Source: Firmicutes bacterium HGW-Firmicutes-11 (GTDB lineage Bacteria; Bacillota; Clostridia; Peptostreptococcales; Anaerovoracaceae). From it: a stretch of DNA of 56,524 nt. Positions 5,745-32,114 of this stretch are shown here, piece by piece (position 1 is the stretch's first letter; every line of letters begins with the position of its first letter). The position numbers and the translations under genes are program-made. The DNA lies in assembly GCA_002840285.1 (NCBI GenBank), contig PHAE01000012.1, positions 1-56,524 of the forward strand, read 5' to 3'. The notes beneath the pieces are model-generated. The model saw only the letters and a list, made by a program, of their open reading frames with translations, searched no databases and was not told the DNA's origin.

Positions 5745-7322
5745 CTATACACCGCTTCCTCCATAGTTTGACAGCACGCGGGCGGAAGGGTCGGCGACCC
5801 TGCAACCTTCCCAAGACTGGTTTGGCATCCAGAAATCCTTGATCATCTCAGCCTGGTTTGGATAGTGTTTTTCAAAGATTTCCCGGTAAAGAAGACTTTC
5901 CTTCGTAAACGGTGTCGCGTGTCCGAACTTCATTCGCGCCACGTCAAAGCCTGCATCTGTGTACCGCGACTCCGCAGCCTCCTTCAGATAATCGACCATT
6001 GAGTGGCCGACTGCGTCACTAAATGCCGCCTTTTCCCGATATAAAATGGGAAGTGGTAGCCAGTCGCCTTCAAAAGCACGGCGGAGCAGATATTTTCCCT
6101 TCCCGTAGCGGTTGAGCTTCTTTTCCGGGTGGATCGACATGACATATTTGACGAAATTCAAATCACCAAATGGGACTCGTGCTTCCATGGAGTTTACCGA
6201 GATGCAACGATCCGCCCGCAGCACGTCATAAAGGTGAAGTTCCTCCATCCGTTTTTTTGACTCTATCTGAAACTCTGTGGCATCTGGTGCGAAATCAGTA
6301 TATTTGTAGCCGAAAAGTTCGTCAGAGATCTCTCCGGTTAGGAGCACCCGCACATCGGTATTTCCGCTGATCGCTTTGCATATGAGATACATGCCGATGC
6401 TGGCCCGGATCGTCGTGATGTCATAGGTTCCCAGAATGCTGATCACGGTTTCCAGGGCGGTCAGCACATCTTTCTTTGTGATGATGATCTCGGTATGGTC
6501 GCTTTGAATGTAGTCGGCGACCTGCTTTGCATAGCGTAGGTCGATGGCGTCGCTGTCCATACCGATGGCAAACGTCCGAAGCGGCCGATTCAATAGCTTA
6601 GCTGCGATTGCACAGACCAGGCTGCTGTCCAACCCTCCGCTCAGTAAAAAACCAAGAGGGGCATCCGCGTCCAGCCGCTTTTCCACTCCTGAAATCAGCC
6701 GGGTTCGGATCCCTTCACAAATCGTGTCGATGTCGTCTGTGCAGTACTTCTCTACATGAGTAATGTCGCAGTACTGGACGAACTGTCCGTCTGCATAATA
6801 ATGGCCGGGAGGAAATGGTGTGATTTTATCGCAAAGATCCAAAAGGTTTTTGGCCTCGCTGGCAAAAATGATGGTACCATCTGGCAGATATCCGAAGAAC
6901 AACGGCCTGATTCCAATAGGGTCTCTGGCTGCGACCATAGAGTTGCGCCTACTATCATAGATCACCAAGGCAAACTCTGCATCCAGCATTTGGAACATCT
7001 CCAGCCCGTGCTCACGATAAAGCGGCAAGAGCACCTCGCAGTCAGAGTTGCTGAAAAATTGATATTTTTTTGAGAGTTTCTGCTTTTCTGCACGAAAGTT
7101 GTAGATCTCACCGTTGCAGACCACATAATCGTCACCCAGCCGGAATGGTTGCATGCCATTGACTTCAAGATCCATAATAGCAAGTCTGTGAAAACAGAGG
7201 ACTGCAGAGCCTGTCTCCACAATGTGAGACATGTCGGGTCCCCTAGAAATAGTTCGGTCAAAGCACTCCTTCGCCTTCTCGCTATCAATACTTTTTTTGT
7301 AAAACCCCATGATGGAACACAT
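5745..7322 (-). CDS. asnB: Asparagine synthase (glutamine-hydrolysing)
   Basis: A 525-residue two-domain enzyme that makes asparagine from aspartate, ATP and glutamine. The N-terminal class II glutaminase domain has the nucleophile Cys2 (exposed after Met removal), NGE at 70-72 and RDPIGIRP at 133-140. The synthetase domain carries the ATP pyrophosphatase loop SGGLDSS at 228-234 and LTGEISDELFGY about 100 residues later. GGAGG precedes the ATG. Expression is controlled by the Asn-specific T-box leader directly upstream, which fits this function very well. Single-gene transcription unit. Confidence 0.95.
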   Translation of the reverse strand: MCSIMGFYKKSIDSEKAKECFDRTISRGPDMSHIVETGSAVLCFHRLAIMDLEVNGMQPFRLGDDYVVCNGEIYNFRAEKQKLSKKYQFFSNSDCEVLLPLYREHGLEMFQMLDAEFALVIYDSRRNSMVAARDPIGIRPLFFGYLPDGTIIFASEAKNLLDLCDKITPFPPGHYYADGQFVQYCDITHVEKYCTDDIDTICEGIRTRLISGVEKRLDADAPLGFLLSGGLDSSLVCAIAAKLLNRPLRTFAIGMDSDAIDLRYAKQVADYIQSDHTEIIITKKDVLTALETVISILGTYDITTIRASIGMYLICKAISGNTDVRVLLTGEISDELFGYKYTDFAPDATEFQIESKKRMEELHLYDVLRADRCISVNSMEARVPFGDLNFVKYVMSIHPEKKLNRYGKGKYLLRRAFEGDWLPLPILYREKAAFSDAVGHSMVDYLKEAAESRYTDAGFDVARMKFGHATPFTKESLLYREIFEKHYPNQAEMIKDFWMPNQSWEGCRVADPSARVLSNYGGSGV

Positions 7323-7339
7323 AAGAACACCTCCAATTC

Positions 7340-7626
7340 AAATTAAAAAGCAGCCAATCATCCTAGAGAATAGGACGAATAGCTGCGAATCCGCGGTGCC
7401 ACCTATGTTACTGCCATGAGCAGTCACTTTAAGGCTCTAACAAGCCCGAGCGGGTTAACGCACCGCCTTACGTCTCACCTACTTGCTGCAGTGCAGCTTT
7501 CAGATTGATGCTCCGGAGTGTTATTCACGCAAACTCTTGTACGGGGTTTCCACTATCTCCCGATCACTGTAACAGAACTTTTGCGGTACTTGTCTCCATC
7601 AACGCATTTGAATATTTATTTACGTT
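7340..7626 (-). promoter_or_regulatory. T-box leader (Asn-specific) upstream of asnB
   Basis: The minus-strand leader contains the T-box core AGGTGGCACCGCG (7391-7403 region), then a terminator whose arms GCAGCTATTCGTCCTA and TAGGATGATTGGCTGC (7352-7387) precede TTTTT. Stem I begins near GATGGAGACAAGTA (about 7602-7589) and closes at CATC (about 7510). The likely specifier triplet is AAC at 7522-7520 (in GAATAACACTCC), an Asn codon. The antiterminator bulge is UGGC, which pairs with an acceptor end GCCA, that is, a tRNA with discriminator G as in tRNA-Asn. Uncharged tRNA-Asn should therefore stabilise the antiterminator and turn asnB on. Confidence 0.93.
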
Positions 7627-10786: not shown

Positions 10787-11524
10787 TCAATTTACTTCGA
10801 TCCCCTTGTTCCTATAGATGTTTTTTGCATTTTCGATTCGCTCCTCTGAGGGTGGGATGGTTTCTTTCAGGGCATACTCCAATCCCAGGGTTTCGTATTT
10901 GATCGACCCCATTTTATGGAACGGTAATATCTCAACTTTCGTAACATTGGTAAGTCCAGACACAAACTGTGCGTGCCTTTCGATCAGGTCGTCGCTATCC
11001 GTAAAGCCAGGTACTAAAACGTACCTGATCCAAGTCGGTATTCTTTGTTCAGACAAGTAGTTTGCGAAATCCAATGTGGGTTGCAAGGGTTTCCTGGTCA
11101 GTGCCAAATGGATCGTCGGGTCAATGCATTTCACATCCAACAATACGAGATCGGTATGGTTCAAAGCTTCCTTCACATCGTCGCCGAGGTAACAGCCGGC
11201 GGTGTCGATCGCTGTGTGGATCCCTTCTGCTTTGCAAATTCGAAAAAGCTCTTTGACGAACTGCGGTTGGAGCAGTGGTTCTCCTCCGGATACTGTGATG
11301 CCGCCGTGCTTATAGTACGGCATGAATTTCTGCATTTTTTGAAGCACTTCTAGAGGCGTTAATTCATATGCTGCATGATTCAGATCAAAGGTGTCCGGGT
11401 TATGACAATACAAACACCGGAATGCGCATCCTTGCATAAATACAACAAATCTCACTCCTGGACCGTCAACGGTACCGAAGCTCTCAAACGAATGTATTTT
11501 CCCAGTGATCGGTTCTTTTTTCAA
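10787..11524 (-). CDS. pflA: Pyruvate formate-lyase-type activating enzyme (radical SAM)
   Basis: A 245-residue radical SAM enzyme that would use S-adenosylmethionine to put a glycyl radical on the neighbouring PFL-like protein. The cluster motif is C33-C37-C40 (CAFRCLYC), followed by GGITVSGGEPLLQPQF, the usual SAM-binding GGEP. The length is that of PflA proper, with no ferredoxin insert such as dehydratase-type activases carry. The start codon is TTG at 11524, seven bases after the upstream gene's stop, preceded by GGTGAG. It is the last gene of the corrinoid/cupin/GRE operon. Confidence 0.9.
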   Translation of the reverse strand: MKKEPITGKIHSFESFGTVDGPGVRFVVFMQGCAFRCLYCHNPDTFDLNHAAYELTPLEVLQKMQKFMPYYKHGGITVSGGEPLLQPQFVKELFRICKAEGIHTAIDTAGCYLGDDVKEALNHTDLVLLDVKCIDPTIHLALTRKPLQPTLDFANYLSEQRIPTWIRYVLVPGFTDSDDLIERHAQFVSGLTNVTKVEILPFHKMGSIKYETLGLEYALKETIPPSEERIENAKNIYRNKGIEVN

Positions 11525-11531
11525 TGCTCAC

Positions 11532-13760
11532 CTATATCGATTCATTTACTGTGCGAGATATTACATCCAGCTGCTGTTCTCGAGTCAATTTCGTGAAGTT
11601 TACCGCATATCCGGATACGCGAATCGTAAGATGAGGATACATCTCCGGATGTTCCATGGCATCCTCCAGCAAAGACTTGTCGAATACGTTCACATTCAGG
11701 TGTTGACCGCCGGTGGGCGTGAAATAGCCATCCAGCAAACTTACAAGATTCGTTTGCCTCTTGTCCGTTTCTCTTCCAAGTGCCGCAGGGGCTATGGCAA
11801 ATGTATACGAAATCCCATCGCAGGCGCAGCCGTACGGTATTTCACTCACTGAAGTGAGCGATGCAACGGAGCCATTGATGTCTCTTCCATTCATGGGGTT
11901 TGCACCAGGTGAGAAAGGAGCGTCTGACGGTCTTCCACAAGGAGTGGCTCCCGTCATTTTTCCATATACGATGTTGGAGGTTATCGTCAGTATCGACATC
12001 GTTGGCTTTGCATTTCGATGCATTTTGTGTTTACTGATGAACTGATAGAAGGTTCTTGTGAGATCTGCAGCTGTGCGATCTGTTGCTTCGTTGCTGTTGC
12101 CAAAAGGAATATAGCTTCCGCTTATTTCAAAATCCACCGCTATCCCAGCAGAATTTCGAATCACCTTGACCTTTGCGTTCTTGATTGCCATCAGTGAGTC
12201 AACAGCGATAGAAAGTCCGGCGATGCCAAAGGTTTCATAGCGTTTGATGTTTAAATCGTGCAATGACATTTGAAACGACTCATAAGCATACTTGTCATGC
12301 ATATAGTGAATGATATTTACTGCCTGGACATATACTCCGGCAAGCCACTTTTGGATTTCTAAAAAACGCTCCATCACTTCATCAAAATCAAGATACTCCG
12401 AGGTGATCGGTTCGAATCTCGGTGTTACCTGGATGCCGGTCTTTTCATCTCTTCCGCCATTGATCGCATACAGCAATGCCTTAGGCAAATTGATACGTGC
12501 TCCGAAGTACTGGGTTGCCTTCCCGAGTTCCAGTGCTCCCACACAACCGGAGATGGCATAATCATCGCCAAATTCGGGACGCATCAAGTCATCGTTTTCA
12601 AATTGGATCGAAGAGGTATCGATTGCAACTTTGGTGCAATACTCCTTCCATGCTTTTGGAAGACGCTCAGACCATAATATCGTGAGGTTGGGTTCCGGCC
12701 CGATCCCAAGATTGTACAAGGTGTGCAAATATCGAAATGATGTTTTGGTCACCAATGTTCTTCCATCAACACCCATTCCCCCCAGCGACTCGGTGATCCA
12801 AGTAGGATCGCCTGAAAATAGTTCGTTGTATTCCGGCGATCTGAGAAAGCGGAACAGGCGAAGTTTCATTAGAAAATGATCGATCAACTCTTGTGCTTCC
12901 GTTTCTGTTATTACATTGTTTTTTAAGTCTCTTTCAATATAGATATCTAAAAAAGTGGATGTGCGACCGAGAGATGTGGTTACGCCATCCTGCTGTTTTG
13001 CCGCTGCCAATATGCCAAAATATACGAACTGCACTGCCTCCTGTGCGTTCTTCGCCGGTTTGGACACATCGATCCCATAAGAAGCACACATGCATCGAAA
13101 TTCTTTCAATGCCTTGATTTGGTCTGCCAATTCTTCTCTTTGCTGGATGATCTCCGGGGTCATCTCTCCCGGCTCCAGAAGACTGAATTCTGTTTCCTTT
13201 TGAGAAACTAAATAATCTACACCGTACAGAGCGATCCTTCTGTAATCACCAATGTGCCGCCCTCTGCCATAGTTTTCAGGCAACCCTGTGATCAATCCGG
13301 ATTCGCAGGCCCTTCGGATTTCCGGTGTATAAACTGCGTTGACACCATCATTGTGGGTTTTGATGTACTTAGAATAGATTTCTTTTATATCCGCATCAAG
13401 GGAATACCCATTGTGTTCAAGCGCATCCTCCAGGGACGGGAGGCTGCACTTGGGAAACAATGCCCGTTTCAAAGGCGCATCTGTCTGCAGCCCAACGATC
13501 TTTTCCAGATCGGCGTTGATGTAACCTGGTTTGTGACTTGTGATGGTCGAGATGGTTTTTCTATCTATATCGTAGACACCGTTTCTTTCTCTTTCAAGCT
13601 CCAACAGACTCGAAACCTGACTCGACAAAGTGGTTGTGGCGCTGGTGGGCCCTGCAAGAAACGATGCCCCTTCTACATAGGGCGAGTAATTTTCTTGTAT
13701 GAAATCCCGGACATTGATCTCGGACTTCCATAAGTCACCTTTGAATCCATTCCAGTACAT
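11532..13760 (-). CDS. PFL-like glycyl radical enzyme lacking the first catalytic Cys
   Basis: A 742-residue protein that aligns by eye with E. coli PflB throughout. The C-terminus has the radical-bearing loop RVSGYAV (Gly717) and [12 protein letters not shown]. The carboxylate-binding arginines of PFL appear kept ([20 protein letters not shown]). However, where PFL has the pair C418-C419 (IACCVSP), this protein reads ISGCVGA, so the first cysteine, the one acylated in PFL, is Gly405 and only Cys406 remains. It is close to PFL, not to the GCVE dehydratase/lyase group. Pyruvate cleavage is therefore uncertain. The start is the second of two ATGs, six bases after AAGGAGG. Eight bases downstream of it lies the activase gene; upstream is the cupin gene. 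Confidence 0.85.
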
Positions 13761-13771
13761 CATAAACCTCC

Positions 13772-14119
13772 TTAAACATTCGCGTCTGTTGCGAAGGCCT
13801 CGGAACCCATGGGTGAAATCGTTACATAAAGGCGCAATACATCATCACCGGTGTTGATGACCTGCAAGCTCTCCTGCCCATCAACCTCCATCAACTCGCC
13901 TACCTGCAGCGAGGTTTCATTGCCATCTGTGACAACTTTAGCATTGCCCTCCATGACCTGCAGAAAAAGGGTTGATTCCAGATGCGTATGTCCCGGTAGT
14001 ATTTCCCCTTTTGCAATGTTTAGAACAAAAGCAATCACATTATCGCTCTTGAACAGCATCCGCTTGGCGATTTTTCCCTCTGGCTCAATAAAATAATCAT
14101 TGAAACTATACTTGTTCAT
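13772..14119 (-). CDS. Small single-domain cupin protein
   Basis: A 115-residue cupin. Motif 1 is seen as [18 protein letters not shown] (H59/H61-like metal ligands and a Glu) and motif 2 region as [20 protein letters not shown], in which the usual second-motif His is not obvious. Cupins of this size bind metal and act as enzymes, sensors or stabilisers. I use the ATG at 14119, eight bases after AAAGGAGG, instead of an upstream in-frame ATG inside the preceding gene. It sits between the methyltransferase and PFL-like genes with gaps of 31 and 11 bases, so it is part of that operon. Function unknown. Confidence 0.75.
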
Positions 14120-14150
14120 AGATATTTCCTCCTTTGATTTAAGTTTGAAC

Positions 14151-15137
14151 TTAGTTATACCCAAACATCTCCTGGCTTAATTTATCGATTGCTTTCCCAA
14201 CCTCTTCATACACCCCCGGAAAGGAACTTAAATTCATCCCTTGAATCAAGCACGGAATAAAATACAGTTTACCGCAATTTCGGCAAGCTCTCTCGACTTC
14301 TCTGGCTATAATCTCCTGTGTCCAGTCTGGAACATCGACAGTACCACTGTCGATATCTCCCATAAAGGTGATCTGTTCGCCATATTTCTTGATCAGTTCC
14401 GGGGTGTTGTTGGTCGTCATGACACCCTGCCAGATATCGATCCCCATTTCGATCATATAGGGGACCAGATTGGCACTGTAGGAATCATTGTGATGTACGA
14501 TCAGTTCTACACCGTTGGCTTTATAAAAATCATATATTTTCTTATATCCCGGCACATAGAACTTTTCAAACATTGCTGGGGATATAAATGAAGACTTTTG
14601 ACTGCCCCAATCATCATGATGAAAAAGGCAGTCCGGGTGGATCTTTTCTACCATAACCTTTGCATAAGCCAGTTCATATTCTGTTAAGCAATCAATGAGT
14701 TCATGCATGGCTTCAGGTTCCTCATAGAAAGCCATCATAGCATCTTCCATGCCCATCAGGTGATGGGTCATTTCAAACAGACCCGGCGCCATTTTCCCTG
14801 TGACGTATTGGTCATTCCGGTCGACATTACCGGCATGGGCAACAGCATCCGCCCAAGCTTCATCAGAGGTTTCGATTTTAGGTGCAACGACGTATTTGCG
14901 CCACTCGGTTATATCCTTTACTACCTTGTGCTCTGCATCGTGCAGAGGAAACCTGCCGAGCTGACCCTCCGGCCAACTGAACGTAATGCCCCAGCCATCT
15001 TTTACCGTTTGACCGGGTTTGGGACGGGGGCCATCTGGTGCTTCCTTGATGATTTCCATAAATTCATATTGATTGACAAACCGGTCCGGGTTCCCGCCCT
15101 TTATCGTTTCAATTAGATTCTGCCTTTTTGTTAACAT
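14151..15137 (-). CDS. URO-D-family corrinoid methyltransferase
   Basis: A 328-residue protein of the uroporphyrinogen decarboxylase superfamily, methyltransferase branch. Visible features: FHHDDWGSQKSSFISPAMFEKFYVPGYKKI (typical of substrate-side methyltransferases), VELIVHHND, and TFMGDIDSGTVD. These enzymes move a methyl group from a methylated substrate onto a Co(I) corrinoid protein; here the corrinoid protein is the adjacent upstream gene. The HxC...C zinc motif of MtaA/MtbA types is not visible (HHND instead), so it is not simply a coenzyme M-type enzyme, and the methyl donor cannot be named. AGGAGGATAGATACCG precedes the ATG. True uroporphyrinogen decarboxylase activity is unlikely without haem genes nearby. 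Confidence 0.8.
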   Translation of the reverse strand: MLTKRQNLIETIKGGNPDRFVNQYEFMEIIKEAPDGPRPKPGQTVKDGWGITFSWPEGQLGRFPLHDAEHKVVKDITEWRKYVVAPKIETSDEAWADAVAHAGNVDRNDQYVTGKMAPGLFEMTHHLMGMEDAMMAFYEEPEAMHELIDCLTEYELAYAKVMVEKIHPDCLFHHDDWGSQKSSFISPAMFEKFYVPGYKKIYDFYKANGVELIVHHNDSYSANLVPYMIEMGIDIWQGVMTTNNTPELIKKYGEQITFMGDIDSGTVDVPDWTQEIIAREVERACRNCGKLYFIPCLIQGMNLSSFPGVYEEVGKAIDKLSQEMFGYN

Positions 15138-15175
15138 CGGTATCTATCCTCCTGCTGAGTAAATAATAATTTATA

Positions 15176-15817
15176 TCATTGCATTGATGACACTAATTCG
15201 ACAGCTTTGACAGCTGCACTCCCCGCATCTTCAGAATACCCGTCAGCGCCAATATCATCTGCGAGTTTCTGATTTACCGATGCTCCGCCGATGATGACTT
15301 TAAAACCGGATAGTCCACTGTCTTTCATTGCCCGGACCGTCTCTTTCATTCCCGGAAACGTAGTTGTCAGAAGTGCGGAGCATGCGACCAAGGTGACATT
15401 TTGATGTTCTTTGATGGCTTCGATCCATCTGGTTGTGGGCACGTCTACACCGAGGTCTACTATATCAAAGCCCACACTTTCGAGCATTACTGAAACAAGA
15501 TTTTTGCCGATGTCATGCAGATCTCCTTCTACGGTTCCAATGACACAAGTTCCTAAGGAAGTGGTGCTGTCACTGGCGGCTAAGAGCGGTTTGAGAACGT
15601 CCAGGCCATTGGTCATTGCTTTCGCAGCCATAAGCATTTCCGGTATATAAATATCACCGGTTGAGAATTTGTCTCCGATGACACGCATGGAGTCTATCAT
15701 TATCTGCAGAATGTCTTCCGCTGCGATACCTTCGTCGAGCGCTTCCTGCACATTAGTTGCAATTTTCTTTGTTTCTCCTTCCTCTACCAGATATTTGATT
15801 TCTTCAAGTTTAGCCAT
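15176..15817 (-). CDS. Corrinoid (cobalamin-binding) protein of a methyltransferase system
   Basis: A 213-residue two-domain protein of the MtaC/MtvC/MtbC type. Residues 1-85 are the helical cap domain; residues 90-213 form the B12-binding Rossmann domain with D99-x-H101-xx-G104 (DLHDIG), whose His is the lower axial cobalt ligand, then CSALLTTTF and IIGGASV. It carries the methyl group from the URO-D-type enzyme to an unseen acceptor methyltransferase. I start at the ATG at 15817 after GTGGAGG; an upstream frame extension has no binding site. First gene of the five-gene operon. No reductive activator (RamA type) or tetrahydrofolate methyltransferase is in the window. Confidence 0.9.
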   Translation of the reverse strand: MAKLEEIKYLVEEGETKKIATNVQEALDEGIAAEDILQIMIDSMRVIGDKFSTGDIYIPEMLMAAKAMTNGLDVLKPLLAASDSTTSLGTCVIGTVEGDLHDIGKNLVSVMLESVGFDIVDLGVDVPTTRWIEAIKEHQNVTLVACSALLTTTFPGMKETVRAMKDSGLSGFKVIIGGASVNQKLADDIGADGYSEDAGSAAVKAVELVSSMQ

Positions 15818-15885: not shown

Positions 15886-15891
15886 ATTATA
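15886..15891 (-). promoter_or_regulatory. Candidate -10 element of the corrinoid/GRE operon
   Basis: A perfect TATAAT lies on the minus strand about 70 bases before the corrinoid gene. A -35 is weak (TGACTG-like at 18 bases). It is the only promoter-like signal I can find for the five genes 15817-10787. Confidence 0.35.
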
Positions 15892-15960
15892 TCATATTTG
15901 TTGATTCATCAGTCACCCAAGGCCGTCATCAATACGGAAATTTTGGCTTATGTCAAAACC

Positions 15961-27452: not shown

Positions 27453-27481
27453 ACAATACCATAGCAGCCGAGGCTTGTCAA
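27453..27481 (-). promoter_or_regulatory. Promoter of the infC operon
   Basis: Minus-strand -35 TTGACA (27481-27476), 17-base spacer, -10 TATTGT (27458-27453). The -35 box overlaps the stop codon of the sigma-54 activator gene. Confidence 0.65.
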
Positions 27482-28908
27482 ACGGTTTTTTGGCCACCGC
27501 TTTCACTTTTGCCTTGATCGATCTGATGCTTGGCCAGTTTGCGCACGACAGTCGGCTGGCTGATCCCCAGGACTTTCGCCATTTCCCTTGTTGTGTGGTA
27601 TTTTTTCAGTGTTCCGATCAGAATTTGCTTCTCTGCTTCGTCCAAAGCTTCCTTCAGGTTTACCACTGTGCCGATGTTGAATTCTCCCGGTTGTCTGGTA
27701 CTCTCAAAGATATAACTTGGCAGATTCTCCGGCCGGATCATCCGATCCTTCGTCGTTATGACCAAGCGTTCGATGATGTTTTCCAACTCCCTGACATTTC
27801 CCGGCCAGTTATACTTCAACAGGGTCGACATCGCAGCTGCGTTCATGGTTTTTGACTCTTTGAATTTTTGGTTGTTCTTTTGCAGAAAGGAACGGATCAT
27901 GGGAACGATATCCTCCGGCCGTTCTCTCAGTGGCGGCACGGAGATCGGAACCACATTGAGCCGATAAAACAGATCTTCACGGAATCGTCCTTGACGCACC
28001 ATGGCGTCCAGATCCCGATTGGTGGCGGAAATGATGCGAACATCGATGGGAATGCTGTCGATCCCCCCTACCCGCTGTATTTGCTTCTCCTGTATGACTT
28101 GCAGTATTTTGACCTGAAGATTCAATGGGAGTTCCGATATTTCATCCAGAAACACGGTCCCCCGATTTGCCACTTCGAACAGCCCGATCTTTCCGTCCTT
28201 CCGTGATCCGGTAAACGCGCCGCTCTCATAGCCGAACAGTTCGGATTCCAGGAGATTGTCTGGGATCGCTCCACAATTGATTTGTATAAATGGAAACGCA
28301 CTGCGGTTACCTGCATCGTGAAGGAGCCTGGCAATGACTCCTTTTCCCGATCCGGATTCTCCCGTGATCAAAATCGTGGTGTCTACAGGAGCAAGCCGAC
28401 GCGCCAGTTGCACGACGCTGTACATTCCCGGGCTGTTTGCGATGATGTCCTCTTCCCCGTCTTCCTGTAAATAGCTGTCGCTTCCTTTCAAACCATGAAA
28501 CGCCGCTTGCATGCTCTCCAGTTTGGTTTGCAGTTCCAGCAGTTCGGTGATGTCATGGGAGGTCGTTATGATTTTAGAAAGTTTGCCTCCCTCAGTGAAC
28601 AAAGGGATCCCGGTGGTCAGCAATCGCTTGCCATCACGGTTCTGATGAAGAATGCTGACTTCCTTCTTCTGCTCCATGACCTGTTTCGCTACAGAAGGGC
28701 TGAAAATTCCGATCTGTTCCAGATAGGTGCAATGCTTTCCTATGGTTTCCTCCCGTTTTATCCGGTAAAGATCCTCGCAAGCTTTGTTGATCCAAAGCGC
28801 ATAGCCGTCGGCATCGTCGATGAAAACACCGTCGCCGATACTGTCAAGAATCGGCGCAAGATCCCAAATCGACAGTCCTTGAATCTCTGTTGTGCTTTGC
28901 GTCGTCAT
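27478..28908 (-). CDS. Sigma-54-dependent activator, PAS-AAA-HTH
   Basis: A 476-residue enhancer-binding protein. A PAS domain (about 15-125) senses the signal, the AAA+ domain has Walker A GESGSGKG (183-190), the sigma-54-contacting GAFTGS loop (230-235) and Walker B TVFLDEI (251-257), and a TyrR-type HTH ends the protein (TTREMAKVLGISQPTV, about 438-453). It diverges from the dehydrogenase/aminotransferase operon, which has a textbook sigma-54 promoter. A 19-bp inverted repeat upstream overlaps its own likely promoter, so it probably represses itself while activating the operon. GGAGGAAAA precedes the ATG. Confidence 0.93.
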   Translation of the reverse strand: MTTQSTTEIQGLSIWDLAPILDSIGDGVFIDDADGYALWINKACEDLYRIKREETIGKHCTYLEQIGIFSPSVAKQVMEQKKEVSILHQNRDGKRLLTTGIPLFTEGGKLSKIITTSHDITELLELQTKLESMQAAFHGLKGSDSYLQEDGEEDIIANSPGMYSVVQLARRLAPVDTTILITGESGSGKGVIARLLHDAGNRSAFPFIQINCGAIPDNLLESELFGYESGAFTGSRKDGKIGLFEVANRGTVFLDEISELPLNLQVKILQVIQEKQIQRVGGIDSIPIDVRIISATNRDLDAMVRQGRFREDLFYRLNVVPISVPPLRERPEDIVPMIRSFLQKNNQKFKESKTMNAAAMSTLLKYNWPGNVRELENIIERLVITTKDRMIRPENLPSYIFESTRQPGEFNIGTVVNLKEALDEAEKQILIGTLKKYHTTREMAKVLGISQPTVVRKLAKHQIDQGKSESGGQKTV

Positions 28909-28951
28909 TTTTCCTCCTTTTAGAACATGGGGACGGTTCTCTGTTCTACCC

Positions 28952-28993
28952 TTTGATTCACTATTGTATCAGCCGATACAATAGTGAATCAAA
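28952..28993. promoter_or_regulatory. Upstream activator sites: perfect 19-bp inverted repeat
   Basis: TTTGATTCACTATTGTATC (28952-28970) is followed by AGCC and its exact reverse complement (28975-28993). Each arm contains an imperfect 18-bp palindrome (28954-28971 and 28974-28991), so two dimer sites lie 20 bp apart. A TTGATT-18-TACAAT promoter for the activator gene is embedded in it. Confidence 0.7.
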
Positions 28994-29051
28994 CCAAACT
29001 ATCTAGTTTTACCAACGTTTTTTGACTTTAGTTAATCCTTTGTCAGTGTTA

Positions 29052-29069
29052 TGATTCATTATTGTATCA
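29052..29069. promoter_or_regulatory. Third activator site
   Basis: TGATTCATTATTGTATCA differs by one base from the site at 28954-28971 and lies about 170 bases upstream of the sigma-54 promoter, a normal enhancer distance. Confidence 0.65.
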
Positions 29070-29216
29070 TTTTTTACCAAATTTCGCAATCATGATTTTT
29101 ATGCATTGATGTATGGGATAAAAACCGTTCCGTTCGGGTAGGCTCAAGTGTTCCAGTGCAAGGCTTTCGAGGACTGCATTTGACTTTTTTTCCCGAGCAT
29201 CCCATTTTGTCGAGAC

Positions 29217-29234
29217 TTGGCACGGCAATTGCTT
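29217..29234 (+). promoter_or_regulatory. Sigma-54 (-24/-12) promoter
   Basis: TTGGCACGGCAATTGCTT matches the sigma-54 consensus TGGCACG-N4-TTGC without error (-24 GG at 29219-29220, -12 GC at 29231-29232). Transcription should start near 29243, about 90 bases before the dehydrogenase ATG. Confidence 0.92.
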
Positions 29235-29333
29235 TAATATATACTGTTGTTGAACTGTTGAGATTTGCCTGATCTCATCAGGTACAAGACCATTCCCATC
29301 AAATTATACCAAATGTCCAAAGGAGGAGCAAAC

Positions 29334-30743
29334 ATGGCAATTGATTATGCAAAGTACATCAGTGAATTAGTGGCAAGAGCAAAAGCAGCTCAGGAGATCG
29401 CCAACGGATTCACGCAAGAAAAGGTTGACGAGCTTACAGCGGCTGTCGCCTATGTAACTACACGTCCGGAATTCGCACAGCAAGCTGCTGAAATGCTTGT
29501 AGAAGAATCCGGTATGGGAGTCCCTGCAAACAAAGTCGCAAAAATCTATGCAAAAGTCAAGGGTGGCTACCGCGATATGAAGGGCAAGAAGTCGGTCGGA
29601 CTCATCGAAACCAATGACGTTACCGGAGTCAGCGTTTACGCCAAGCCCATGGGCGTCATCGGAGCGATCATCCCCGTAACCAATGGCGAAGCAACTCCGA
29701 TCTTCAAAGCGGTTGCCGCTATCAAGGGCAGAAATGCCATCATTCTTGCACCTCACCCCAAAGCAGCAAAAACCAACATGTTCGTCACGAACAAAATCAG
29801 AGAGACTCTGAAGAAGTACGGCGCACCGGAAGATCTCGTCATCGCGATCGAGCCTGAATACGTCAGCATCGAAAGCTCCGGCGAACTCATGAAGCAGGTC
29901 GACTTCGTTCTGGCCACCGGCGGAACACCGATGGTCAAATCTGCATACAGCTCCGGAACACCGACCATCGGCGTCGGAACCGGAAACGTCGTTACGATCG
30001 TTGACGGAACCACTGATCTCGACAAAACTGCGGACCTGATCCTGGCTTCCAAGACCTTTGACAATGCAACCAGCTGCTCTACAGAAAACAACATCATCGT
30101 TTTCGAAGACTGCTATGACAAGTTTGTCGAAGTAATGGCCAGCAAAGGCGCTTACACGATCAAGGACAATACAGAAGACAAGCAGAAACTCGTCAAAACA
30201 CTTTGGCCCAACACACCGGTCGATCATGTTTTGAATCGCCACATCGTTGCACAACCTGCGGCAAAGATCGCCGAACTGGCAGGAATCACCGTTCCCGAAG
30301 GCACAAGAATGATCATGGTAGAAGAGAATGGCGGATATGGCAATGAATTCCCGCTGACCGGCGAAAAACTCTCCCCGGTAGCAGAAATCAGAAAAGCAAA
30401 GGATTTCGAAGATGCCGTTCAGCAGCTGGAAGCGATCCTGAACTATCAGGGACTCGGACACAGCTGCGGTATCCACACCACCATTATGGAAAGAGCATAC
30501 GCCATGGGCGAGCGTCTCAAGGTGACTAAGGTCGTCGTTAATATGGCCCAGTCTCTCGTCAACAGCGGCGCATGGACCTGCGGTTATCCGATGTCCATGA
30601 CTCTGGGCTGCGGTACCTGGGGCAACAACAGTATTTCCCATAACGCCACCTGGAAGGACTTGCTGAACTTCACCTATCTGGCGACTCCGATTCCGTCCAC
30701 TCAACCGACTGACGAAGAACTCTTCGACGGAAAAGAGTACTAA
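29334..30743 (+). CDS. CoA-acylating aldehyde dehydrogenase, sulfoacetaldehyde dehydrogenase (SauS)-like
   Basis: A 469-residue NAD(P)-dependent enzyme that would turn an aldehyde plus CoA into an acyl-CoA. Catalytic Cys248 lies in KTFDNATSCSTEN; APHPKAAKT and GVGTGN are cofactor motifs; the C-terminal GHSCGIHT and LGCGTWGNNSIS are typical of the SucD/SauS group. The DNATSCS context and the PTDEELF ending point to acylating sulfoacetaldehyde dehydrogenases more than to succinate semialdehyde enzymes, from memory of the families. AAAGGAGGAGC precedes the ATG at 29334. First gene of a sigma-54 operon with an aminotransferase that could supply sulfoacetaldehyde from taurine. Strong codon bias suggests high expression. 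Confidence 0.75.
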   Translation: MAIDYAKYISELVARAKAAQEIANGFTQEKVDELTAAVAYVTTRPEFAQQAAEMLVEESGMGVPANKVAKIYAKVKGGYRDMKGKKSVGLIETNDVTGVSVYAKPMGVIGAIIPVTNGEATPIFKAVAAIKGRNAIILAPHPKAAKTNMFVTNKIRETLKKYGAPEDLVIAIEPEYVSIESSGELMKQVDFVLATGGTPMVKSAYSSGTPTIGVGTGNVVTIVDGTTDLDKTADLILASKTFDNATSCSTENNIIVFEDCYDKFVEVMASKGAYTIKDNTEDKQKLVKTLWPNTPVDHVLNRHIVAQPAAKIAELAGITVPEGTRMIMVEENGGYGNEFPLTGEKLSPVAEIRKAKDFEDAVQQLEAILNYQGLGHSCGIHTTIMERAYAMGERLKVTKVVVNMAQSLVNSGAWTCGYPMSMTLGCGTWGNNSISHNATWKDLLNFTYLATPIPSTQPTDEELFDGKEY

Positions 30744-30788
30744 ATCCAGGACATCGAATCGTCATTCAAGTTACAAGGAGGAAACACA

Positions 30789-32114
30789 ATGTCGAAAGTA
30801 GTAGAAATGGGCAAAAAGTACAATTTGTACTCTTGGTCAGCACAGAGCAAAATCAATCCGATCAACGTAGTGAAAACCGAAGGCATCTATTTCTGGGATG
30901 AGGACGGAAAAAAATATTACGACATGTCAGCCCAGCTGGTCAATATGAACCTCGGCCACGGCAACAAAAAGGTCATCCAGGCGATCAAGGACCAGGCAGA
31001 AAAAATGGCTTTCCTGGCACCTTCTTATTCCTGCGATGTCCGGAGCGAAGCTGCGATGAAGATCGTTGAAAAATCCGGCATGGAAGGCGCGAAAGTCTTC
31101 TTCACCAACGCCGGCGCAGAAGCCAACGAAAACGCCATCAAGATGGCAAAGGCTTACACCGGAAAGTGGAAAGTCTTCTCCGCATACCGTTCCTACCACG
31201 GCGCCACCTATGGCTCGGGCAATCTCACCGGCGAAGGCCGTCGTTTCATCAACGAACCAGGCATCCCGGGCTTCATCAAGTTTGACGGCCCCTACCCCTA
31301 CAGAGCTCCGAAGGCATGCAAATTCGAGAGTGAAGAAGATGTGACCGCGTTCTACCTTGAGCTGCTGGAAAATCAGATCCTGTATGAGGGTCCCCAGTTC
31401 ATCGCTGCGATCTTTATGGAAACCGTCGTCGGATCCAACGGCGTTCTGGTTCCCCCCAAAGGTTACATGGAAGGCGTCCGCGCCCTCTGCGACAAATACG
31501 GCATCTGCATGGTCTGTGACGAAGTCATGGCAGCATGGGGACGCACCGGCAAATGGTTTGCCTATCAGAATTGGGATGTCAAACCCGATCTGGTCTCCTT
31601 TGCAAAAGGCGTTACCTGCGGTTACGTTCCTCTGGGCGGCGTCATCGCCTCTAAGAAGATCGCTGACTTCTTCGACGACAACAAGATGTTCTGCGGCCTG
31701 ACCTATAGCGCACATCCCATTGGATGCGCCGCTGCTATAGCGACCATCGATGCATACGAAGAAGACAAAGTCTTTGAGAATGTAGAAAAAGTCGGAAAAG
31801 TTCTCGCAGAAGGACTGGAAGCATTGAAAGCCAAGCACGCCTGTGTTGGCGACGTTCGCTACATCGGTCTTTTCTCCATCGTGGAATTTGTCAAAGACAA
31901 AGCGACGAGAGAGCCCCTCGTGCCCTTTAGCAAGGATCCGGAAGGCATCATGCCCAAGATCATTGGTATGCTGAAAGCGGAAGGCTTCTCCACCTATTCC
32001 CACGAGAACATGATCCATGTATCTCCCCCGCTGATCATCACGGAAAAGGAACTGAAGGAAGCGCTTCAGATGCTGGACAAAGTCCTGGATTCCGTCGACA
32101 ACATGATCAAATAG
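30789..32114 (+). CDS. Class III (omega) aminotransferase, taurine aminotransferase-like
   Basis: A 441-residue PLP enzyme. The cofactor Lys is K273 in SFAKGVTCGYVPLGG; FFTNAGAEANENAIK and MVCDEVMAAWGRTGK are PLP-pocket motifs. The fold type I class III family moves terminal amino groups to pyruvate or 2-oxoglutarate. The pairing with an acylating sulfoacetaldehyde dehydrogenase-like gene 45 bases upstream suggests taurine as donor; beta-alanine, GABA or 5-aminovalerate are alternatives. AAGGAGG precedes the ATG. Codon use is biased as in its partner. A strong terminator follows. Confidence 0.85.
   Translation: MSKVVEMGKKYNLYSWSAQSKINPINVVKTEGIYFWDEDGKKYYDMSAQLVNMNLGHGNKKVIQAIKDQAEKMAFLAPSYSCDVRSEAAMKIVEKSGMEGAKVFFTNAGAEANENAIKMAKAYTGKWKVFSAYRSYHGATYGSGNLTGEGRRFINEPGIPGFIKFDGPYPYRAPKACKFESEEDVTAFYLELLENQILYEGPQFIAAIFMETVVGSNGVLVPPKGYMEGVRALCDKYGICMVCDEVMAAWGRTGKWFAYQNWDVKPDLVSFAKGVTCGYVPLGGVIASKKIADFFDDNKMFCGLTYSAHPIGCAAAIATIDAYEEDKVFENVEKVGKVLAEGLEALKAKHACVGDVRYIGLFSIVEFVKDKATREPLVPFSKDPEGIMPKIIGMLKAEGFSTYSHENMIHVSPPLIITEKELKEALQMLDKVLDSVDNMIK

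Follow-up and report, generated by a model that had tools for sequence, protein, structure and literature searches.

A glycyl radical enzyme derived from pyruvate formate-lyase but without its cysteine pair, encoded beside a probable corrinoid methyltransferase module in a Clostridia draft genome

Enzymes of the pyruvate formate-lyase (PFL) family carry two consecutive cysteines, both of them essential, and it is Cys418 that binds the substrate-derived group, according to an extract of PMC11194802; glycyl radical eliminases, by the account in an excerpt of PMC7077986, bear a CXE motif. The UroD superfamily, in the accessible portion of PMC13222342, includes O-demethylases and the zinc-independent chloromethane enzyme CdmB, as well as clades whose substrate is unassigned, and the RdhU-RdhV-RdhW set that lies beside a dehalogenase consists of a corrinoid protein, a UroD-like protein and a MeTr (extract of PMC9888536). 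Here we consider a locus in which relatives of both kinds of system are found together. The window, a stretch of 56,524 nucleotides (contig PHAE01000012.1 of assembly GCA_002840285.1) from Firmicutes bacterium HGW-Firmicutes-11, carries five open reading frames (ORFs), all on the minus strand, for a corrinoid protein, a URO-D-type methyltransferase, a cupin, a PFL-derived glycyl radical enzyme and its activase. The first-pass annotation of this DNA knew of no described pathway that pairs corrinoid methyl transfer with a PFL-like enzyme, and we too found no description in the open-licence literature, which is weak evidence of absence. Judged by its active site, the radical enzyme is neither a PFL nor an eliminase; it is probably a rare glycyl radical enzyme with a job other than that of PFL, and the set of five genes to which it belongs looks like three parts brought together in this one genome.

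The likeness to PFL extends over the whole protein. The radical enzyme aligns with E. coli PFL (PflB, structure 1h16) from end to end, scores 1049.8 bits against TIGR01255, the NCBI equivalog model for PFL (cut-off 994.2), has an RVSGYA glycyl loop starting at residue 715, and is accompanied by a cognate PflA-type activase that scores 310 bits against TIGR02493 (cut-off 231.75). Arg176 and Arg435 of PFL bind the carboxylate of pyruvate, and both are retained, along with W333, F327, F432, C419 and G734. In contrast, the cysteine pair is gone: E. coli PFL reads AIACCVSPM where the radical enzyme reads AISGCVGAL (SGCVG at residues 405-409), so that in the alignment to 1h16 Cys418 has become Gly (Gly406) and Cys419 is kept as Cys407. 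Gly-Cys occupies this position in all four members of the subfamily. Further substitutions relative to E. coli PFL are A272V, A273T, S421G, I177H, N270D and A171N, and the first five of these are among 44 positions at which E. coli PFL agrees with the canonical PFL encoded elsewhere in the same genome (G000:C69:79404-81608, with a normal ACC pair and 54% identity to the radical enzyme) and all four members share a different residue. In the numbering of the radical enzyme, three of the substituted residues are T262 (273), H170 (177) and D259 (270). Because the acyl-accepting Cys418 is Gly and both cysteines are essential, PFL chemistry is improbable, and with Cys418 and Ser421 both replaced by Gly, and with A272V and A273T, the acyl-transfer half-reaction would be unavailable. 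TAG is the stop codon of the gene; although the host probably translates some TAG codons as pyrrolysine, an ordinary stop here agrees with the length of the gene.

Comparison with the eliminases (glycerol dehydratase, CutC and HypD) gives an equally divided picture. Like them, the radical enzyme has one active-site cysteine in a G-C-V context and a hydroxyl residue at the position of PFL Ala273, which is Thr here, and Ser in three of four other glycyl radical enzymes aligned alongside (Cys in the fourth). Those four enzymes, assigned by motif alone, all read CVE, whereas the radical enzyme reads CVG and so lacks the CXE motif; unlike the eliminases it also keeps the PFL arginines, and it scores 110.5 on the CutC model, the cut-off of which is 1050. 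One of the CVE enzymes, from locus L059, passes NCBIfam PRK09983, 'formate C-acetyltransferase' (1167.3 against a cut-off of 1109), an instance of the loose use of that name.

Few genomes carry the PFL-derived form. An exact-pattern scan of GTDB r220 contigs with GAYTAYGCNATHNNNGGNTGYGTNGGNGC, which variants with other residues escape and beyond which the host's own genome possibly lies, returned two stretches, from a Marinisporobacter metagenome-assembled genome and from UBA5559. A looser pattern matched 12 genomes among 393 of the order; as a control, the reversed pattern gave none among the matches listed. Eight of the 12 were examined on longer stretches or, for the host, as the window: four hold the PFL-derived form (the host, G387, G090 and G096) and the other four opened (G328, G150, G216 and G029) hold CVE types, while G266, G202, G054 and G045 were judged by the matched DNA alone (DYGIIGCV). 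Within the family of G096 two of 16 genomes match, the same two already found. The other three members share 76-78% identity with the enzyme of the window, and an activase adjoins the radical enzyme in all four.

The surroundings of the other three members resemble one another. In their fetched stretches each has an enolase-superfamily enzyme, a BCCT transporter and a small protein that we take to be VOC-like (Pfam gives it no match), and two have an aldehyde dehydrogenase beside the radical enzyme, for which the closest model is the acylating SauS, the match falling under its cut-off. As a label for the aldehyde dehydrogenases SauS is a lead only, the two scores being 556.2 and 478.8 against a cut-off of 600. 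Upstream of the PFL-aligned start, at a distance of 75-102 bases, all three have a sigma-54-like site, the counts being one in L060, one in L061 and two in L058 (one of them at the shared place) against 0.06, 0.08 and 0.04 expected per locus, and a PAS/sigma-54 activator is adjacent in two, recognised by Pfam in L060 and by likeness in L061. The enolase-superfamily partner has matches in 10 of the 393 genomes, of which eight were opened, leaving out G149 and G199 (34-35% identity); three have the radical enzyme, and in all five of the others (L079-L083) the partner and BCCT occur without it, beside an FAD oxidoreductase. This suggests that the partner and the transporter deliver a betaine-like carboxylate which may be processed by either the radical enzyme or the oxidoreductase. 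The partner has close relatives of solved structure, 3mqt and 3mkc, for whose names a literature search found no function, and at 1e-60 it is without a match among plasmid records.

The corrinoid protein and its URO-D neighbour belong to a better-populated group. A URO-D protein next to a corrinoid protein with a DxHxxG motif is the make-up of a UroD-type corrinoid methyltransferase system, and in this the pair resembles the O-demethylases MtvB, OdmB and VdmB and the CdmBCA system; the best NCBIfam model for the corrinoid protein is MtgC_2, at 184.9 bits below the cut-off of 370. The HxC motif is the mark of an MtaA-type zinc site, and the window URO-D protein has none, again like those systems. 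Matches to it occur in 49 of 297 genomes of the order (E <= 0.001) and 14 of 398 of the phylum (E <= 1e-40), the host included in both counts. It is 61-78% identical to 11 aligned relatives, and DDWG and VHHxD are invariant in all 12 sequences. We fetched 18 relatives (53-78% identity) out of 28 matches of at least 47% besides its own; several stretches, L111, L117, L120 and L123 among them, are short or ended by the contig end. A corrinoid gene adjoins the URO-D gene in 10 of the 18, a methyl-tetrahydrofolate (methyl-THF) methyltransferase is nearby in six and DUF2284 in four. The window pair differs from the described systems in having no adjoining methyltransferase II, none being present in the 20 kb around the operon, and in being followed by a radical enzyme, and no solved or characterised member is within sequence reach. 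Most simply, it would be a separate module of known type from which methyltransferase II is missing. Entry of the methyl groups into acetyl-CoA, along the lines of the C1 route that the first-pass annotation had suggested, finds no support in the gene content of a draft genome estimated to be 95.85% complete: there is no match to CdhC (acetyl-CoA synthase), and the single Pterin_bind match lies in an 832-aa frame that is MetH-like by eye.

Two arrangements among the URO-D relatives may be recorded here. In a 590-aa frame at L035:8608-10380, URO-D and corrinoid domains are joined in one protein, with DUF2284, RACo and a homocysteine methyltransferase-like gene as neighbours; seven more matches belong to its family, open frames of 590-625 aa known by frame length alone. 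L034:11822-12412 encodes a protein that is longer than the window cupin and different from it, matching the cupin model weakly (22.8 bits against a cut-off of 27.2); a URO-D relative of 56% identity lies about 1.4 kb away, and the fetched stretch has no corrinoid gene.

The host genome, a draft of 1,929,503 bases in 75 contigs, offers further context. RACo, the reductive activase, is present (PF14574, 264.6 bits, cut-off 27). There is an MttB gene with one in-frame TAG, a second MttB-family gene without one, and an MtbB gene (377.1 bits, cut-off 369.1) that TAG interrupts at DGL*IGVGDPLG. In a methylamine cluster at G000:C67:40000-59000 (L086), MttB and MtbB are accompanied by RACo, a pair of corrinoid proteins, a protein resembling MtaA/MtbA that ends in a thioredoxin-like part, and frames that by eye we presume to be pylB, pylD and a split pylS. 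Pyrrolysine is probably encoded in the genome, and use of trimethylamine and dimethylamine by the host is likely. In having MttB and MtbB the genome resembles methylamine use by CutC with pyrrolysine-containing MttB and MtbB, although these genes are on another contig and the radical enzyme is not CutC, and a methylamine link for the locus may be drawn only tentatively. About 12 kb from the operon a sigma-54 activator (27478-28908, 38% identical to that of L060) and a SauS-like aldehyde dehydrogenase (51% to that of L060) are joined by a class III aminotransferase (27478-32114 in all), with a sigma-54-type (-24/-12-like) site at 29218-29232 by the dehydrogenase gene (two sites against 0.30 expected, as many in 6 of 100 shuffles); the three could be a companion unit of the operon. 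A second, more distantly related aldehyde dehydrogenase, at L087:3241-4617, is 40% identical to the L060 enzyme. Around the canonical PFL gene (G000:C69:70500-90400, L040) no activase was recognised among ORFs of at least 100 aa, the rest of the genome not having been searched for another; the window activase might, on that account, serve both enzymes. Upstream of an asparagine synthetase-like gene at 5745-7322, the window also has a T-box leader (7368-7611).

In proposing an explanation, we favour an operon assembled within the lineage from three parts, one of which is a PFL-derived enzyme of changed chemistry, and we consider this about evenly poised between right and wrong. The corrinoid protein and the URO-D protein, acting as methyltransferase I, would take a methyl group from a small methylated compound, as the relatives with methyl-THF methyltransferase suggest. 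The radical enzyme and its activase would represent a rare subfamily that descended from PFL: the activase would make the radical on Gly718, from which it would pass to Cys407, the equivalent of E. coli Cys419. Since the acyl-accepting cysteine is Gly, we infer that the thiyl of Cys407 takes hydrogen directly from a small carboxylate gripped by the two PFL arginines, with a radical elimination or lyase reaction as the outcome and not the cleavage of pyruvate. In the relatives the substrate probably enters through the BCCT transporter, which makes a betaine- or sulfonium-like carboxylate the best guess, and an aldehyde that is turned into an acyl-CoA may be the product in two of them. In the host, the corrinoid pair might act either ahead of the radical step, by demethylating the substrate, or after it, by demethylating the leaving group. 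Among the substrates weighed (carnitine, DMSP, sulfolactate, taurine and beta-alanine betaine) the evidence favours none. A stronger version, in which these proteins make up a new glycyl radical class with a PFL fold, a carboxylate clamp and one thiyl cysteine, cleaving a methylated betaine- or sulfonium-like carboxylate and wired to the corrinoid pair as a single pathway in this genome, is tentative, and we think it rather unlikely as a whole.

Several observations weigh against the explanation that we favour. The first-pass annotation had named as its test a search of other genomes for the same five-gene neighbourhood, and among the genomes examined the order is seen in the host only: corrinoid protein, URO-D protein and cupin are absent from the fetched stretches of all three other radical enzymes, and radical enzyme, activase and cupin from those of all 18 URO-D relatives. 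As no other examined genome pairs them, the functional link of the corrinoid pair with the radical enzyme depends on one operon; methyl transfer and a radical step in one pathway, as originally suggested, could be accommodated by that operon but gain no support from comparison. The host genome has no match to a BCCT transporter and none at 1e-40 to the enolase-superfamily partner, so its substrate may differ from that of the relatives, and no separate methyl-THF methyltransferase was found in it, a provisional result at 95.85% completeness. With the CXE glutamate of the eliminases absent, an elimination has no identified base. The sigma-54-like sites are singly weak, the same being found in 12 and 16 of 200 shuffles for L060 and L061, and structure prediction was of low confidence (pLDDT 33.1 for the radical enzyme from three sequences, 47.3 for the URO-D protein from one).

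The arrangement of the genes (Table 1) bears on whether they belong together at all. Spacing and strand are as first reported, and Pfam bears out each protein type, the gaps in gene order being 38, 31, 11 and 7 bases (the 11 counted from the second ATG, at 13760). A strong ribosome binding site had been claimed for every gene; Shine-Dalgarno-like purine runs do precede four of the five starts, whereas the activase has a weaker run (ATATAGGTGAGCA) and a TTG start. In keeping with the claim of no internal terminator, a terminator scan found none within any intergenic gap of the operon (8 sites against 6.2 in shuffles). The motifs of the corrinoid protein (DLHDIG), the activase (CAFRCLYC) and the glycyl loop (RVSGYA) are unbroken. 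Upstream of the corrinoid gene the extended -10 TGATATAAT is promoter-like and a candidate promoter; a two-hexamer promoter scan had no match there and found 6 sites against 12.2 in shuffles. Transcription of the five genes as one unit is plausible.

Table 1. Positions in the window of the five genes and of the candidate promoter, with supporting matches
Feature	Position	Strand	Properties
Corrinoid protein	15176..15817	-	213 aa; DLHDIG cobalt-binding motif; Pfam B12-binding 81.7 bits, B12-binding_2 63.4 bits
URO-D-type methyltransferase, putative substrate:corrinoid methyltransferase I (MTI)	14151..15137	-	328 aa; Pfam URO-D 63.2 bits, cut-off 23.9
Cupin, small, single-domain	13772..14119	-	115 aa; Pfam Cupin_2 32.3, cut-off 27.2
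PFL-derived glycyl radical enzyme	11532..13763 (start 13763 or 13760)	-	Pfam PFL-like and Gly_radical; TIGR01255
PflA-type radical SAM activase	10787..11524	-	245 aa; Pfam Radical_SAM; TIGR02493; CxxxCxxC from residue 33
Extended -10 promoter-like TGATATAAT	15886..15894	-	Consensus match only; ends 68 nt before corrinoid ATG

The cupin, which holds two histidines only, is the part most readily seen as a latecomer. Copies 87-93% identical to it occur in four of 20 other chosen genomes (four more have weak matches of 24-34%), and beside these copies the fetched stretches contain no URO-D, corrinoid or radical-enzyme gene; two of the four are flanked by what look, by eye, like transposase frames. 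Of the genomes with these copies, three also carry URO-D orthologues and one the radical enzyme, as is to be expected from the way in which the 21 genomes were chosen. We regard the cupin as a probable recent and mobile passenger that was gained by the operon, although it shares the operon's close spacing. The suggestion that it releases or isomerises an intermediate is left unsupported by these unrelated settings, and for the same reason a part for the cupin in the pathway was set aside. The strongest rival to our explanation is that a corrinoid/URO-D module, a roaming cupin and a radical pair were joined by recent gain, sharing a promoter while serving unrelated pathways. That the five-gene order is seen once and each part is found without the others speaks for such an accidental operon, as does synonymous divergence, the cupin differing from two of its copies by dS of 0.49 and 0.84, whereas for the URO-D protein and the radical enzyme the window and the relatives compared are saturated in dS. 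Set against this are the short gaps and single-strand order, and a GC content of 0.453-0.464 that hardly varies across the five genes; we consider an accident unlikely, though to be taken seriously.

Within the assembly that we favour, the corrinoid pair is a substrate demethylase. It could instead handle or repair corrinoid, as RdhUVW might for the reductive dehalogenase of Desulfitobacterium hafniense, with which the URO-D relatives share the same three gene types, a likeness by description only (extract of PMC9888536); moreover, the best solved structure for the URO-D profile is a UroD, at a non-significant E of 0.02. However, no dehalogenase was seen near the window pair, RACo and further parts of corrinoid methyltransferase systems are present in the genome, and the occurrence of two to five URO-D matches per genome in eight of the 14 phylum genomes suits a set of substrate-specific methyltransferases. 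We judge corrinoid handling to be improbable.

The pathway first put forward for this locus, in which a 2-oxo acid arises by demethylation and is then cut by the PFL-like enzyme to formate and an acyl product, fares worse. A score above the NCBI cut-off for PFL, the retained carboxylate arginines and Cys419 are all to its credit, but the Cys418 that is described as essential (extract of PMC11194802) is Gly in four of four members. Given this loss, the absence of the eliminase CXE and the normal PFL already present in the genome, cleavage of a 2-oxo acid is unlikely, and the pathway as a whole we hold to be very improbable. That the radical enzyme is simply a decayed, inactive PFL is barely credible: one PFL catalytic residue has indeed been lost, but the frame is intact, an activase of its own adjoins it, the same Gly recurs in four genomes, dN/dS is about 0.12 between the two closest members, and both the radical loop and Cys419 are kept.

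What deserves attention in this locus, whatever joins its three parts, is a glycyl radical enzyme that derives from PFL but lacks its cysteine pair, and for which we found no description in the open-licence literature, itself weak evidence of absence. The pair is regarded as the hallmark of PFL, and yet this subfamily passes the annotation cut-off for PFL without it; its members would consequently be named 'formate C-acetyltransferase' and the formate output of their hosts would be wrongly predicted. The neighbourhood of the relatives, with its BCCT transporter, enolase-superfamily enzyme and aldehyde dehydrogenase, narrows the candidate substrates. The subfamily also offers a natural experiment on the way in which a radical enzyme that cleaves carbon-carbon bonds may switch to another activity by the loss of one cysteine.

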